Of a stretch of 47,417 nt of DNA, positions 7,072 to 42,698 are shown one piece after another. The notes under the pieces were generated by a model. The model worked only from the letters and a program-made list of their open reading frames with translations. It did no database searches and was not told the DNA's origin. Position numbers and translations under genes: made by a program. The stretch's first letter is position 1; each line of letters begins with the position of its first letter. The DNA is from Polyangiaceae bacterium. Its GTDB lineage: Bacteria; Myxococcota_A; Polyangia; Polyangiales; Polyangiaceae. Where the stretch lies: NCBI GenBank assembly GCA_029261965.1, contig JAJDAH010000281.1:1-47417 (forward strand). The letters run 5' to 3'.

Positions 7072-7145
<74 letters not shown>

Positions 7146-36879: not shown

Positions 36880-38037
36880 TCAGCCCATCGAAACGACGCG
36901 GTTACGGCCCGCCCCTTTGGCCAAGTAGAGGCGCCGGTCGGCCGCGGCGAGCAACTCGGCGGCGGTTTCTTCGGTGGAACACCCGAGCGAGGCGGCCCCG
37001 GCGCTCAGTGTCACGGGGATGAGCTGCCCGTCGTGCATGGCTGGCTTGGCCGAAACTGCGGTGCGGATGCGCTCTCCGACGCGGGCAGCGCCGGGTAGAT
37101 CGATGCTGCGCAGGATGATCGCGAACTCTTCCCCGCCGTACCGCGCGAACACGTCCTCGACGCGCAGACGAGGGTGCACCAGGCCGGCGGTGTGCGAGAG
37201 CACCGCGTCGCCGGCTTGATGTCCGTGACGGTCGTTGACCTGCTTGAAATGGTCGAGGTCGAACAGAACGAGCGAGACGACGGTCTTGTGCCGCACGGCG
37301 TAGGCCACTTCCGAGTCGAGCCGCTCGTCGAAGTGCTGCCGGTTGTAGGTTCCGGTCAGCGCGTCTCGGGTGCTCGACTCGAACAGTTGGCGGTACAACC
37401 GCTCCTGTTTTTCGTCGGTCAGGGTGAAACGGAAGCTCACACGGGGTCCGATGTGAACGATGTCACCATCGCGAAGCACCACAGTGCTCACCCGTTTGCC
37501 GCCGGCGTAGGTGCCGTTGCTCGAACCGAGATCCTCGAGGTAATAGCCGCCCGCCTGACAAAGAATTCGAGCGTGTGACCGCGAGATGCCCTCGTCCTCG
37601 ACGCGCACCGCTTGTTTGCGTCCGCGGCCGATGGTGACGCCGTCGTCGCCTATCGACGTCGTCTGGCCCGCGAGCGCTCCGTCCAGGCGCACGAGCACGG
37701 CGCGATTGCGCACGTTGAGCGTTGGCGTTGGCGGTGGTGCACCGACCTCGGTGACGCGCCCGACGCTCGTGATGTCCTCGAATTCGTCGTCGTCGTCGAG
37801 AAGCGAGACGAACGGCGCGCGGGAGGAGGGGGGATCGAGCCGTGGCAAGGGCACCGGCGCTGCGGTCGGTACGACGTCCGCCGCCATGGTCTCCGTCGAC
37901 ATGATTCGCGGCGCAGAGCCGCGGACCGCTCGCATTTCCGGTTGAGTTTGAGCGGTGGGTGAAGCGGTCTTCGCTTTTTGCGCCGCGTGTTGAAGCAGCG
38001 AAGGACAGGGCGGTAGCACCGCCGCCCGCTGGCTCAC
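36880..38037 (-). CDS. FHA-GGDEF diguanylate cyclase
   Basis: 385 residues from GTG 38037, which overlaps the stop of the upstream EAL gene by GTGA; ATG 37935 and ATG 37902 are alternatives. A disordered N-terminus (about 100 residues) precedes an FHA domain (VTIGRGRKQAVRVEDEGISRSHARILC, YYLEDLGSSNGTYAGGKRV; conserved G-R, S-x-x-H and N-G-T) that binds phosphothreonine. The GGDEF domain has RYGGEEFAIIL, an intact active site and an I-site R-V-E-D. FHA-linked cyclases are controlled by Ser/Thr kinases, which myxobacteria have in large numbers. It would make c-di-GMP in the cytoplasm, next to its own degrading enzyme. Confidence 0.93.
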   Translation of the reverse strand: MSQRAAVLPPCPSLLQHAAQKAKTASPTAQTQPEMRAVRGSAPRIMSTETMAADVVPTAAPVPLPRLDPPSSRAPFVSLLDDDDEFEDITSVGRVTEVGAPPPTPTLNVRNRAVLVRLDGALAGQTTSIGDDGVTIGRGRKQAVRVEDEGISRSHARILCQAGGYYLEDLGSSNGTYAGGKRVSTVVLRDGDIVHIGPRVSFRFTLTDEKQERLYRQLFESSTRDALTGTYNRQHFDERLDSEVAYAVRHKTVVSLVLFDLDHFKQVNDRHGHQAGDAVLSHTAGLVHPRLRVEDVFARYGGEEFAIILRSIDLPGAARVGERIRTAVSAKPAMHDGQLIPVTLSAGAASLGCSTEETAAELLAAADRRLYLAKGAGRNRVVSMG

Positions 38038-39422
38038 CACTGCACCGTTGGGAACGGCTTGCCGGGTTTCGCGAACTTGAAACCTTGAAACAGATCGCAG
38101 CCCAGCTCCGCGAGGGTGTCGCGCTCGGCGCCGGTTTCGATGCCTTCGGCGACGACGAGCATGCCCATGTCCTTGCACAGAGCGGTCATCGATCGGACGA
38201 GCTTTTGCTTCGTCGCGCTGGTGTCGACGTCGCGCACTAGCGTCATGTCGAGCTTGACGATCTCCGGCTCGAGCGTGGCGAAGCTCGTGAGCCCCGCATA
38301 GCCGGCGCCGAGGTCGTCGATCGCGATTCGGTATCCCATCTCCCGCAAGGTGGAGACGATGGACTTGACGTCTTTGACGCAGTCGAGCGACGACCGCTCG
38401 GTGATCTCGAGCACCACCCGATGTGCGATCTTCGACAGCGCGGCGTCGGGGTTCAGCAGATCGGAGTCGAGCAGATCCGTCGTGTGCAAATTGACGAACA
38501 AGAGCTCCTTGGACTCGAGCGGAGCGATGGGCCCAGCGGCGCGTTCACGAATCGTGCGGCCGAGCAGGTCGAGCGCCTCGAGGCGCTCGGCGGCTTCGAT
38601 GACCGCCCCAGGATGGGGAAGACTGGGCTCGTTGCTTCGAAGCAGGGCCTCGTAGCCGAACACGGCGCGAGTTTTTGCGCAGAGAATCGGTTGGTAGGCC
38701 ATCCAGAGCGTGCTCATCGCTCGTCGGAAGCTCGTTTCGAGCCCGACACGGTCACCGGCTCCAGGCTCTTCGCCGAGGATCTCTGCCGCTTCGCGCTTCA
38801 TCCGCGCCATGCGGCTGAGGCATACGGCCTTGTCCACGACTTCGAGCAGGTCCTCGTTGGCGACTGGCTTGAGCAGGTAGTGAAACGCGCCGTATTCGAG
38901 CGCCTGAACGGCGGTGCTCACGGCGGGCTCTCCGGTCACCAGGATGACCGGGACATCGAGATCGTGCTCGCGGGCGATCTGCAGAAGCTGAATGCCGCTG
39001 ATGCTCGGCATGGCGATGTCGGTGACGATCGCGTCGAGCTCCTGCCCGGCGATGATCTTGGCTGCGGCGTCGCCGTCGGGAGCAGCGATGACGTCGTATC
39101 CCGTCGCGCGCAATAGTCGCGTGAAGCTCCTCCGAAGCTCGGGCTCGTCGTCCGCGAGCAGCACCCGACCGCGCTTGGTCGGCCACTGACCGCTTTCGGT
39201 GGAGTCGCTTGCCGGCGTAATCGCCACCGGCACGCGGGGTTTCGAGCTGGGCGGCTGGGCGCTCGGTTGGACAGCGGGCAGCGCTTTCAGGCCGGGCGGC
39301 TCCGGCTCGGTGCCGTCGCCGGCGTGCACCAACGCAGTATTCGCACGGGCGGTCATAGCCCATGGGAACGGCACGGTCGTCCAGTCCTGTAGCGAAGTTT
39401 TTCGGTTCGAGAGCGGACCCAT
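38034..39422 (-). CDS. receiver-EAL c-di-GMP phosphodiesterase
   Basis: 462 residues from ATG 39422; the frame opens at 39545 and ATG 39446 or 39356 are alternatives. A disordered 80-residue lead is followed by a CheY-like receiver (VLLADDEPE, acceptor D135 in IVTDIAMPSISG, K in LLKPVANEDL) and an EAL domain. Catalytic residues appear intact: E258 in FGYEALLRS, FVNLH, VLEITERSSLD, AIDDLGAGYAGL, VKLD, VVAEGIET and LGCDLFQGF. This domain order equals response regulators of the RocR/PdeR type whose EAL activity is set by phosphorylation. It is the first gene of a two-gene c-di-GMP operon with the FHA-GGDEF gene. Confidence 0.93.
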   Translation of the reverse strand: MGPLSNRKTSLQDWTTVPFPWAMTARANTALVHAGDGTEPEPPGLKALPAVQPSAQPPSSKPRVPVAITPASDSTESGQWPTKRGRVLLADDEPELRRSFTRLLRATGYDVIAAPDGDAAAKIIAGQELDAIVTDIAMPSISGIQLLQIAREHDLDVPVILVTGEPAVSTAVQALEYGAFHYLLKPVANEDLLEVVDKAVCLSRMARMKREAAEILGEEPGAGDRVGLETSFRRAMSTLWMAYQPILCAKTRAVFGYEALLRSNEPSLPHPGAVIEAAERLEALDLLGRTIRERAAGPIAPLESKELLFVNLHTTDLLDSDLLNPDAALSKIAHRVVLEITERSSLDCVKDVKSIVSTLREMGYRIAIDDLGAGYAGLTSFATLEPEIVKLDMTLVRDVDTSATKQKLVRSMTALCKDMGMLVVAEGIETGAERDTLAELGCDLFQGFKFAKPGKPFPTVQW

Positions 39423-40176
39423 CTCTTTTTTGCTTCTTCGCTGCATTTCGAGTCCGTTTCGGCGCCGGCTTGGGAGTCGGCACGTCGTGGCGCTTTCGCC
39501 CTCGGATTGTTTCGCATCACCGAGGCGTGCGGCCGGCTGAGCCAACTCCGCGATTTTGGTGCTGGAACCGCCGCGGGATTGGCTTCAAACAAACACTTAG
39601 AATGTAATTCTTCAAACAAAATTTACCGCTCAATTCAATGGAGATAATCAAACGAGTAAAAGGGGTGCACTGCTGCGTGCGGCCAGGCGTTGCTTCCGCA
39701 AAACTTGCGCATGTTTGGCTTAAAAATAGGGGTTTGATGAGCGGATTGCGCGGCACTAGTGACGTCGGTCGTCGCGCTTTGGCGACAAGCTGCGCACAAG
39801 CTGTGGACAATAAATGTGACCTAGAGCGCGTTTTTCTCTTGCTTTGAATTGGCTCTCGGCACATATTCCAAGTCAGGAAGTTCGCGGCATATCTGCCGCG
39901 GGCAATTCGTTCGTAGAAGCCTCCAAAGGCGCTGCGGATGGTGCGGTTACCCTCGCGGTGCCGTTCATCCGACCCGGTACTCGCGTCGAGCCCGTCAAGG
40001 CGCGGCATGAGTCACGGAAAACGAAGGCGCGCTGCCCAAGCTTGAGCACTCGTGCGCGAGCCGGCACATTCCGGTGGGTCGAGACCCGACACGTTGGGAT
40101 CAGCGGAGGTGGAAGGCGCCTCGGCTTTCAGGAAGCACCGTTTCGTTCGCGCGGGCGGTGTGGAAAAGAGTCTTGG
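39423..40176. other. AT-rich non-coding stretch with direct and inverted repeats
   Basis: No believable protein gene lies here. From about 39583 to 39670 the GC content falls sharply. CTTCAAACAAA occurs twice (39583-39593 and 39610-39620), with AGAAT-GTA-ATTCT between (39599-39611). ACAAGCTG occurs in tandem at 39785 and 39796, followed by TGTGGACAA, one base away from a DnaA box. CGCGGCA-TATC-TGCCGCG (39883-39900) is a stable hairpin. The stretch could hold the promoter of the minus-strand EAL operon, of a plus-strand RNA, or both. TTTACC-15 bp-GATAAT (39622-39648) is a weak plus-strand promoter candidate. Confidence 0.45.
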
Positions 40177-41706
40177 CCGACCTGGTCGATCGGGGTCCCT
40201 TTAGACCCACGGAGGCCGGTCGGTGACCGATGAGGCGTCGGGGAGACATCGAGCTGGCCTATTCGCCGCCGTGCGGATGCCACCTCGCGGTCTCACTCAC
40301 CTCGGCACTTCCGAGGCCCTCGGGCCGCGGCAGTGAGATGCTGCGCGGCGTCAATCGACGGGGCAACTTGCCGATCGACGCAGCGGACCAGGAGACTGGT
40401 CCGTGCGTGGGAGCGAATCGCCACGCGGTGTGCTCGCGTTGAGATTGAGTTGCAGTAGGTTGACAAGAAGCGTCTGATCCCAAAAAGCGCGGTGAGGCTA
40501 CGGCCGAACGGCGCGGACGGGGGACTAGCAACGACGGGCAACCGTCGGAGCAAAGGGGCGCTTTGAAGCGAATTGCGGCGGCGAAGCCGCAGTGGCGTGA
40601 AAGTCTCGCGAAGAGACCTTGATCCACCGAGGATGTCCCGGGCTGTCGAAACTCGAGTCCTTTCACGAAGGATCCGAGCGGAAACTGCCTAGACCGGATG
40701 AAAACGCCGAAGCGACGGCAACGTCGAAGAAGCGGGACCAGCCGGTGTACGGGGACGTTCAGAGCCTGAACACCGAACTGACGTCGAGGGGAGACAATGC
40801 CCAAGACGCTGGATCAGTGACAAACAAGCTCAGCGGACCGCGCGTCGTGAAACGTGCGGTCCATCCGCCAGCAGCTGGGGCAACCTGGTGAAGCGGGCGG
40901 ATAACTCGACAGGCGCGGGTTCTCGTCTTTGAAAATGTGGGTTGCACAACGTCGGCCAAGACGCATCTGTGTCTGGGGAACCGGGTTGCCGCGAGGTAGC
41001 CGGGATATCCACTGGGCTAGTGCGGCGCAGACCATCGGGCTTTTGACGAGGCGCGGTGAGAAACGTCGGGCGAACAGGGTGCGCGAAGTCAGGCGCAGAG
41101 ATTCCAGAATTTTTGCACCAGGCGTCGACCCGTGGGGATGACTTCACGGGCTCGAGTAGGTACGACGGAAGGCGTTTTGAGTCGAAGCTACGCTCCTCCT
41201 TAACCGGATGGGCGCAAGCGCGGCTCTGGCTGGGCAGGTCGCTTGGGACTTCGTCGGTCTTCGGACCAAAGATGAAGGCCCCATTAGCCAGCGGGCAGTG
41301 AAGGCTGTTTCGAATGGTGCCTGTTCCGCGACAGAACAACGTCAGAAGCAGGCGTGGCGCGGTAAAGGCTCCTCCACTCGAGAGAGGCGGGGGGTCAGAG
41401 TTCACGGTTCGCTCGTTCTTCGGAGCGTTCGTCCCGAGAGTCGCCGCCGGCGACGTCGGTGAAAGTTGGTCATGAGGTAATTCCTCCCACCATCATCAGA
41501 GGGTCTCGCAGCGCGAACTGCAGGGCTCCCAGGGCATGAAACCCACGTTATGACAATGATATCCCGGGCGCGGTGGCTTCCGCGTCCGAGGGGCTGGTGC
41601 GCACCGAACCGGATTATCCCGGCAAAGAACGTTCAATCGTTCGCCGCCAGCAAGCGAGCCTCCTCGAGGGCGATTCAGGCGACTGAATCGCCCTCGTTTT
41701 TATTTT
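40177..41706 (+). ncRNA. candidate large structured non-coding RNA (about 1.3-1.5 kb)
   Basis: All six frames are short, low-quality ORFs with no recognisable protein. The plus strand carries at least a dozen local hairpins. GNRA or GNRA-like capped: GGACCAG-GAGA-CTGGTCC (40385-40402), CGACGG-GCAA-CCGTCG (40532-40547), CGACG-GCAA-CGTCG (40713-40726), and GGTTGCC-GCGA-GGTAGCC (40984-41001, needing two G-U pairs). Others: GGGTC/GACCC (40193-40208) inside CCGACC/GGTCGG (40177-40223), CCTCGG/CCGAGG (40300-40316) inside CTCACT/AGTGAG, GCGTGG/CCACGC (40405-40426), TGCGGC/GCCGCA (40574-40591), GTCTC/GAGAC (40603-40617), GTTCAG/CTGAAC (40757-40771), an 11-bp stem with one G-U at 40835-40862, GGTC-TTCG-GACC (41256-41267) and GTCGCC/GGCGAC (41440-41454). 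The G-U pairs and tetraloops favour a plus-strand RNA. A strong terminator closes it. It matches none of the common RNAs I know (RNase P, tmRNA, SRP, 6S, rRNA). It recalls a group II intron domain I in style, but no domain V and no maturase are seen. Ends are estimates. Confidence 0.5.
41665..41706 (+). terminator. strong intrinsic terminator
   Basis: CGAGGGCGATTCAG (41665-41678) pairs perfectly over 14 bp with 41683-41696 around a GCGA tetraloop, followed by TTTTTATTTT (41697-41706). It is the strongest terminator in the window. It faces the plus strand, where the only upstream sequence within 2 kb is non-coding, so it most likely ends a non-coding transcript. It is 86 bp upstream of the next gene's start. 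Confidence 0.93.
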
Positions 41707-41792
41707 GTCCACCGACGTTTTCCTCGAGATCTGGGTCGGCGGCTGCCGGTGCTGCCGAGTGCGCTAACCTGCTCGTGGGAGGTCTTCTGGAA

Positions 41793-42698
41793 ATGCGCGA
41801 CGAAGCTCGATGGTCGGTGGTGATTGCGGGGGCGGTCTTCATCGGATTCGCTGGCGCCTGCGGCGGCAGCACTTTCGACGATGGCGCCGTAGATGGTGGC
41901 GGCGGCTCGTCAGGCAGCGGTGCTACGGGCGGTTCCGGTGCCGGCGGTTCGGGAGGTGCTGGCGGCTCGGGAGGTGCTGGCGGCTCCGGAGGTGGCGGGC
42001 AGTGCCTGGTGCCCTGCGACGCGGTCGAGTGCGCCACGGGGTTCGTGAGTCGAACTCCGCCGGGGGCCTGTTGCCCCGAGTGCCTCCCGGAGGAGGGGCT
42101 CTGCGCGGGGTCGACCGAGGACTGCTCCACGCACCCCGGTTGTGCTCCCGGCTACGCCCAGCAGGAGTTCGCGCCAGGGTGTTGTGCCTGTCAAATCGAC
42201 AAGTGCTCGCTCGTGTCGTGTGCGCCGGCGAATTGCGCCGCGGGTGAGCGACTCGTTTTTCCAGGCGATTCGTGCTGCGCCATTTGCGTCCCCACAGGCG
42301 GGTGCGGGCAGGACGAGTTTCCCTGCGACCTCTTGAGCTGTCCGCCGGGCTACACGGGGCTCGAGCTCGGCAACGGTTGCTGCTTCGGGTGCGCGCCGGA
42401 TCCCGACTTCTGTGCGAGCGAAAAAGCGCAGCATGACCAGCTGCTGGCGGACGAGATAGTGCGACTTGGGGCTCTCGACTGCTCTGTCGACGCAGACTGC
42501 ACCATCGTCAGTTTCAGTAACGCGTGTTCCGCCGACTGTGGCACGGGGGTCGCCACGGCCCACATCACGGAGCTGACTCAGGCGACCGAGGAATTTGCTC
42601 GCAACAGCTGCTCGCACTGCCCTCCAGTCGCAATCGGTTGCCCCGCAGTCGTGCTGACGCCACGCTGCTCCGCAGGAACCTGCACGGCCTCGCCCTGA
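41793..42698 (+). CDS. Cys-rich lipoprotein with VWC/chordin-like repeats
   Basis: 301 residues from ATG 41793 with GGAGG ten bases upstream; the open frame starts at 41550 inside the terminator region. The signal MRDEARWSVVIAGAVFIGFAGAC is followed by a Gly/Ser linker (GGSGAGGSGGAGGSGGAGG) typical of myxobacterial lipoproteins. Then come four repeats of the type C-x-x-V-x-C-x(5)-C-x(2)-G-x(6)-GxCCxxC (for example CLVPCDAVECATGF ... GACCPEC and CSLVSCAPANCAAGERLV ... SCCAIC), as in VWC-like disulfide modules. A surface binding role is likely. No catalytic motif. Confidence 0.8.
   Translation: MRDEARWSVVIAGAVFIGFAGACGGSTFDDGAVDGGGGSSGSGATGGSGAGGSGGAGGSGGAGGSGGGGQCLVPCDAVECATGFVSRTPPGACCPECLPEEGLCAGSTEDCSTHPGCAPGYAQQEFAPGCCACQIDKCSLVSCAPANCAAGERLVFPGDSCCAICVPTGGCGQDEFPCDLLSCPPGYTGLELGNGCCFGCAPDPDFCASEKAQHDQLLADEIVRLGALDCSVDADCTIVSFSNACSADCGTGVATAHITELTQATEEFARNSCSHCPPVAIGCPAVVLTPRCSAGTCTASP

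Follow-up and report, generated by a model that had tools for sequence, protein, structure and literature searches.

A large structured RNA of three related units, predicted in a Polyangiaceae genome and across one bacterial order

Apart from ribosomal RNA, structured bacterial RNAs of 1.7-2.4 kb are, to our knowledge, almost unknown, and the closest described systems are the large ornate RNAs OLE, ROOL and GOLLD. OLE is described as a large structured RNA of ~600 nucleotides (nt) that works in a ribonucleoprotein (RNP) and occurs mostly in Gram-positive extremophiles. According to PMC12286853, ROOL is a large structured RNA that forms homo-oligomers, and the largest of three ornate RNA classes solved in 2025 is often >800 nt. 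GOLLD, likewise bacterial and of unknown function, is a very large and ornate RNA made of a single chain. This report concerns a predicted RNA in a stretch of 47,417 nt (hereafter the window), which is contig JAJDAH010000281.1 of a Polyangiaceae bacterium (GCA_029261965.1) read on the forward strand, where an initial annotation had proposed a large, protein-free, highly structured RNA between an EAL operon and a Cys-rich lipoprotein gene. In kind this RNA most resembles OLE, ROOL and GOLLD. It shares with GOLLD a very large size, ornateness and a single chain, and differs from it in having members of ~1.7-2.4 kb (33 aligned) and no Rfam match; it differs from ROOL in that the repetition lies inside one chain, and from OLE in having no constant partner gene beside it. 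Rfam 15 at gathering thresholds returned nothing from the whole window but a tRNA at 7072-7145, a search of 39300-42500 at E<=10 gave a single 19.6-bit match, outside the RNA, and 13 further loci at E<=1 gave only a group II intron end, again outside the RNA. The suspicion that no known RNA explains the segment was borne out as far as Rfam models go, with GOLLD, ROOL and OLE among the families not matched. A literature search of open-licence papers found no report of such an RNA, reports outside that scope being possible, and the main text of two genome-wide non-coding RNA surveys (PMC8632094, PMC11109978) is without Sorangium, Myxococc- or Polyangi-. The RNA looks like a giant RNA not described before, in family and in architecture; if large ornate RNAs are counted together as one kind, it would be a variant within that kind. 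Its limits are as follows.

39875-41706, plus strand: the RNA, ~1832 nt, with the start set from a conserved block and promoter spacing and the end at the terminator T tract
near GGAAGUUCGCGG, plus strand: expected 5' end of the RNA, the inferred start being good to within a few bases

The evidence that carries the finding is conserved structure. For 39875-41706, the single-sequence folding energy of the plus strand has z = -8.05 against 20 dinucleotide shuffles, versus -3.08 for the minus strand and -2.74, +0.52 and -1.41 for three coding-region controls (two sense, one antisense), and on these grounds the proposed structure is real and specific to one strand. Thirty-three full-length members (loci are labelled L, genomes G), 43-52% identical to the window, were aligned with MAFFT without structure, and 31 of them (L136 and L095 excluded) entered the covariation and folding sets; L043 is the same contig as L087, and L041 the same as L089, each being used once there, and L105 and L106 stand outside the full-length alignment. 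Sets A3, A4 and A5 used 22, 24 and 20 of the 33 members, picked mainly by similar length, with L087 and L031 trimmed in A4. Against a null that imitates that of R-scape, preserving the tree and the substitutions per branch, seven of ~1.66 million column pairs reached E<=0.5 and three E<=0.05 (10 nulls), and all seven are base pairs. Complementarity in >=80% of members holds throughout the top 10 pairs, for 15 of the first 20 and for 24 of the first 50, compared with 5% of random pairs. The consensus from RNAalifold has an energy of -413.4 kcal/mol with 313 pairs, far beyond 12 phylogeny-preserving nulls (-18.7 to -44.7 kcal/mol, 76-126 pairs), and 28 predicted pairs have a covariation score >25, as against 0-1 in each null; the minus strand of the real alignment gives -261.4 kcal/mol. 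When the structure is predicted from 15 members on one side of the tree, 68.8% of the cells of the remaining 16 are paired in it (38.8-44.0% when slid), and in the reverse direction 74.8% are paired (40.4-42.1% when slid). The two half-family predictions contain 478 and 333 pairs, 169 of them identical; helices found in both are referred to below as the both-halves list. Covariation beyond phylogeny, stronger on one strand, is the general mark of a structured RNA, and here the covariation is decisive for conserved structure. Because the alignment of variable arms is certainly imperfect, the peripheral arms are unreliable, whereas the helices of the core are solid. In the window, 191 positions are conserved in >=90% of the 31 members, and 83 of these are unpaired. 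That this is a genuine structured RNA family we regard as very nearly certain.

Comparison further shows the predicted RNA to be composed of three related units of ~500-600 nt, each with an arm A, a three-way junction B and an arm C, all on the plus strand.

39907-40417, plus: unit 1; closing helix 39907-39912/40412-40417, from the full alignment and not in the both-halves list; unit also supported by comparison of unit profiles
40103-40247, plus: B domain of unit 1, three-way junction; helices 40115-40122/40232-40239, 40123-40129/40166-40172, 40138-40146/40151-40158 and 40176-40179/40221-40224
40430-40922, plus: unit 2; closing helix 40430-40443/40909-40922, 13 bp, partly in both halves
40620-40768, plus: B domain of unit 2; closing helix 40632-40639/40752-40759; training junction of model R3
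40938-41545, plus: unit 3; closing helix 40938-40945/41538-41545, from the full alignment and in both halves
41159-41351, plus: B domain of unit 3; closing helix 41171-41178/41335-41343, in both halves

In the junction of unit 1, 90.2% of cells are paired (44-50% when slid), double changes occur in 25 of 28 pairs, and none of 500 shuffles is as high on any of five measures. Two covariance models were built, R2 from the first junction only (unit 1) and R3 from the second only (unit 2), and their E-values are rough owing to short calibration. Within the window, R3 detects the junctions of unit 1 (42.5 bits, E 4.2e-8) and unit 3 (24.4 bits, E 0.0013); when it was run over 790 kb from 70 sources, only four of 105 rows fell outside the RNAs, the best at E 0.018. 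The junction of unit 2 is recognized by R2 more strongly in relatives than in the window, for example in L091 (45.0 bits, E 6e-8). In L131, R2 matches at 1700, 2292 and 2928 (E 4e-4, 2e-6 and 0.08), and in L119 at 8642, which is its training junction, 7892 and 7270 (E 1e-5 and 0.008 for the latter two), such extra junctions lying inside the same RNAs, on the same strand, in order and ~600-750 nt apart. Conserved motifs likewise repeat within the family consensus, the same set occurring three times, and around the closing helix of B the consensus reads GGAAGGC ... GCGACA ... GUCAGAGG, the last part being weaker in unit 1. Profiles of whole units, based on sequence, gave 9, 20 and 13 matches to other units at E<=0.1 and none in shuffled or reverse-complement controls; with the controls left out of the target, the unit 2 profile detects unit 1 in 13 members and unit 3 in 11, and the profiles of units 1 and 3 each detect unit 2. 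Between units 2 and 3, the longest matches extend over some two thirds to three quarters of the profile length. A tree was built from the 81 B domains of 27 of the 33 members (~120 sites); in it, junction I is monophyletic (27 of 27, support 0.92) and the 27 copies of junction III fall in a clade of 28 (support 0.70), a topology implying that the triplication predates the sampled family and that the copies have since evolved apart. An internal triplication is thus very highly probable. The three-unit build provides internal controls, and it suggests that giant RNAs may arise from smaller ones by duplication.

Individual hairpins fared variously. Two that covary are listed here.

41367-41396, plus: strongly conserved covarying hairpin; pairs 41378/41385 and 41372/41391 rank second and third overall; in both halves
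40835-40862, plus: covarying hairpin of unit 2; its two best pairs rank 12th and 13th of ~1.66 million; in both halves

The latter had been singled out at the outset for its G-U-containing stem, and its prediction in both halves of the family agrees with that, as does the GCAA hairpin at 40538, whose consensus helix (40528-40535/40544-40551) is also predicted in both. The hairpins capped at 40718 and 40991 are upheld only in part, since they lie on full-alignment consensus helices (40693-40700/40739-40746 and 40987-40990/40995-40998) and are absent from the both-halves list. Those proposed with a GAGA cap at 40392 and a TTCG cap at 41260 lie in stretches that have no consensus helix of their own. 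It is therefore the long-range helices and the three related junctions that mark the RNA, not GNRA caps. The pair 41089/41330 covaries, is complementary in all members compared and ranks 20th, and lies outside every predicted helix; it is possibly a tertiary contact, a pseudoknot or chance.

The distribution of the family was assessed by comparing the window locus with sampled genomes of the order and the phylum. Of 97 genomes searched at the DNA level (G000 included), 19 have matches at E<=0.01. Many of these matches are isolated short pieces, but several loci show blocks in the correct order, and local alignment of homologous loci places these blocks from 39787 to 41710 with their order kept. 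A profile of the first nine members (a model of ~2 kb) matches L036 end to end at E 8e-243, and also many of the loci found with R1, a sequence-only model of the promoter and 5' end, about half of these only in parts or not at E<=1e-3. At E<=0.1, R1 matches 62 of 108 genomes of the family and 90 of 183 of the order, and among the latter 60 remain at E<=1e-3 and 49 at E<=1e-5. In 48 of these 49 there is a single place per genome. Only G109 departs from this; its assembly is 8% contaminated and has two distinct copies on contigs C691 and C195 (L108, L125), which probably reflect a mixed genome bin, a true second copy being the alternative. R3 matches 40 of the 183 order genomes at E<=0.01 and 37 at E<=1e-5, and each of the 37 has an R1 match close by, on the same strand of the same contig, with 18 of the 37 lying outside the R3 training set; R3 matches with no R1 match nearby occur in G117 on contig C183 (E 3e-4), G014 (0.003) and G052 (0.006). 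Carriers include contigs CALMUT010000263.1 (uncultured Myxococcales bacterium) and JAUILJ010000014.1 (Polyangia bacterium). Outside the order, a search of 377 genomes of the phylum gave nothing credible: R1 has one marginal match there (G217, 1.4e-4), and R3 has five at E 0.001-0.01, roughly as many as chance would give. GOLLD and ROOL are carried by phages or prophages; for the present RNA, a blastn search of 50,697 phage and 72,556 plasmid records gave no match, near relatives alone being detectable in this way given a family identity of 43-52%; one exact 18-base match in viral contigs lies inside a long open frame, with neither R3 nor full-length profile support. As far as searched, the predicted family is confined to one order of Myxococcota-type bacteria. 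With homologues across that order, covariation, covariance-model matches and no Rfam match, the undescribed class of large RNA that the initial annotation listed among its options is the one that stands. The longest member seen is L102 (9182 to 6162, minus strand), where the promoter and 3'-end matches are ~3.0 kb apart, perhaps through extra units or an insertion.

The limits first assigned to the hairpin-bearing part of the RNA, 40177 to about 41460, were too narrow at both ends. The most conserved block in the comparison of homologous loci begins at ~39875, which puts the start of the RNA ~300 nt upstream of 40177 with promoter-like sequence before it, and conserved helices at 41467-41491 and 41509-41520 extend beyond 41460. 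The following elements flank the RNA.

39802-39810, plus: TGTGGACAA box, ~73 nt 5' of the RNA start, containing a conserved TGTGGA
39839-39867, plus: promoter-like element TTGCTT-17 nt-CATATT, hexamers at 39839-39844 and 39862-39867
41665-41706, plus: intrinsic terminator, 14 perfect pairs 41665-41678/41683-41696, 4-nt loop, T tract to 41706

The terminator, with its 14-bp stem and long T tract, is exactly as first described, and its stem moreover covaries and is predicted in both halves of the family. Upstream, TTG stands at the -35-like position in all 11 sequences of alignment A2, the A/T-rich -10-like element being looser; a simple promoter scan of the window locus listed no promoter, because the TTGCTT and CATATT hexamers match only eight of 12 consensus letters. 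TGTGGA lies at -71 to -74 in all nine members that were first picked up through their RNA region, against a background of 0.016 per 85 nt, and at a common position in 10 of the 11 A2 sequences, L041 not being aligned there. The TGTGGACAA box resembles a reversed DnaA box, and the TGTGGA at about -72 probably sets expression of the RNA as a site for an activator or for DnaA. In L031, L032, L037 and L038 the RNA is preceded by two or three TGTGGA boxes at a spacing of 12-23 nt, an arrangement that resembles clustered DnaA boxes. Together, the conserved promoter-like region and intrinsic terminator support a free-standing unit producing a predicted large RNA. Its plus strand is purine-rich (GC skew +0.126, AT skew +0.153 in 40001-41000).

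An RNA of 1.7-2.4 kb kept across several families of one order, usually at one place per genome, would point to an important process. As to function, the likeliest reading is a three-lobed structural RNA or RNP scaffold, the lobes being equivalent. The RNA would act in trans, as is suggested by neighbours that change while it stays; its three units may each form one of these lobes, and the unpaired conserved segments that surround each B junction could dock the same partner three times, the partner being either a protein, in an RNP scaffold, or the units one another, in a single-chain pseudo-trimer. For this mechanism the chances appear slightly short of even; for the reading as a whole, a member of a three-unit structural RNA family acting as a trans scaffold or pseudo-trimer, they appear evenly balanced. 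More speculative, and on the doubtful side, is the proposal that an ancient triplication of a 500-nt unit gave rise to an intramolecular pseudo-trimer, the covalent counterpart of homo-oligomeric OLE, ROOL and GOLLD, which would serve as a chromosomal housekeeping particle and be reduced towards one unit in some lineages.

Several observations weigh against the scaffold or pseudo-trimer reading. The RNA is predicted from sequence comparison, and the mechanism is drawn from its architecture. In the window, a 2.1-kb search with R2 gives the junction of unit 2 a weak match (10.8 bits, E 0.018), and the 6.6 bits of the unit 3 junction are noise, ranking under three other rows that look like chance. 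By sequence profile there is no direct match between units 1 and 3, which are linked via unit 2 only, and junction II forms no clade of its own in the B-domain tree. Only one recognizable B domain is present in G019, G058, G130 and G038, the member being ~0.8 kb in G038 and ~1.1-1.5 kb in the other three, with a weakly supported end in G058; three units are accordingly not obligatory. No R1 match at E<=1e-3 was found in 123 of the 183 order genomes, and R3 has no match at E<=0.01 in 12 of the 49 genomes with R1; such gaps may reflect, indistinguishably, true absence, divergence, incompleteness of assemblies or the strictness of search filters. Finally, among the open frames of 12 members, BLASTP at E<=1e-3 gives 25 matching pairs, 19 of them antisense to the RNA. 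Most of them join L037, L090 and L092 to one another or L113 to L119 (the best at E 2e-14), and one, on the minus strand, links the window with L031 (E 1e-7).

Of the alternatives to a scaffold, a ribozyme survives best, with one of the three units as the active core and the other two as structural copies. Its size and multi-domain fold would suit it, and the 83 unpaired positions among the 191 that are >=90% conserved are as expected of catalytic or binding cores; the conserved motifs are, however, spread over three related units with no single core, and no Rfam family, catalytic ones included, matches inside the RNA, so that we consider a ribozyme unlikely. A sponge of the CsrB or 6S type, titrating a protein or RNA regulator via repeated sites, would account for the same motif set occurring three times and could have its expression set by the conserved promoter region. 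Such an RNA would not need an elaborate conserved fold, and its expected sites are not enriched over the 33 members, with 41.0 GGA per RNA versus 48.9 in shuffled sequence and 8.27 ANGGA versus 9.03; a sponge is correspondingly improbable.

Among the roles first suggested was a riboregulator of the flanking cyclic di-GMP (c-di-GMP) or lipoprotein genes, that is, a cis-acting leader or regulator. The RNA does lie between these genes, and on one side of it is a compact pair for c-di-GMP turnover.

36880-39545, minus: FHA-GGDEF gene next to a response-regulator-EAL gene, beside the window RNA

Both genes adjoin the RNA in L087 and L089 as well, and the recurrence of the response-regulator-EAL gene there is in favour of such a role. 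Elsewhere the neighbours are different: an MscS-like gene lies beside the RNA in L031, L032, L033, L036 and L086, the window's own member of that gene cluster matching Pfam mechanosensitive-channel families, and in 12 other loci the neighbour is a radical SAM gene by Pfam, taken to be RlmN-like. The neighbours are thus clade-specific, with no constant association with any one gene, and the RNA persists while they change; in addition, its own conserved terminator precedes the downstream gene. Regulation in cis is for these reasons very improbable.

A decayed or overlooked protein gene, with the structure as a by-product of GC-rich sequence, would have in its favour the long frames open on both strands of the window RNA region and the 25 matching frame pairs noted above. 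In the RNA regions of L031, L032 and L086 (89-94% identical), however, substitutions are spread evenly over the three codon phases and gaps are mostly of 1 nt, whereas the MscS-like gene of the same genomes, used as a control, shows a codon pattern (phases 57/26/168 for L031 versus L086, gaps in multiples of three), and the original view that no credible protein gene is present is upheld. Frame matches are expected wherever DNA is conserved, and given the even phases they are read as echoes of conserved DNA; covariation beyond the phylogenetic nulls and the plus-strand folding z also argue against a gene, which retains almost no probability. In the same comparison the RNA is more conserved than the one neighbouring protein gene compared, the adjoining MscS-like gene (94.3 versus 85.4% and 89.2 versus 75.2% identity in two genome pairs), which again implies an important process.

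The weakest alternative, the degenerate or ORF-less (open-reading-frame-less) group II intron raised in the initial annotation, shares with the RNA a large multi-domain form with many hairpins, and the 5' end of a real group II intron adjoins the RNA in L033, but it can be dismissed with near certainty, as far as Rfam models go, as no group II match lies inside the RNA in the window (E<=10) or 13 further loci (E<=1), the RNA has its own promoter-like region and terminator and usually a single place per genome, and the L033 intron starts ~70 nt past the aligned RNA end. That intron end (L033:1-84, minus strand; Rfam group-II-D1D4-3, 39.1 bits) is truncated where the contig stops. Insertion behind terminators is known for class C introns.

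Two further candidates were rejected. A diverged RNase P RNA or tmRNA, both housekeeping RNAs and, like the RNA here, structured RNAs of the same genome, was set aside as above-cut-off matches to both are located elsewhere in the window's genome. An origin-of-replication element, prompted by the DnaA-like box, was rejected as a location effect, the RNA being far from dnaA: in six single-contig genomes that start at dnaA it is 1.1-3.0 Mb away (the RNA matches of G139, G140 and G141 being weak, E 8e-5 to 7e-4), and the distance is ~2.0 Mb in G038 and ~0.7 Mb in G054.
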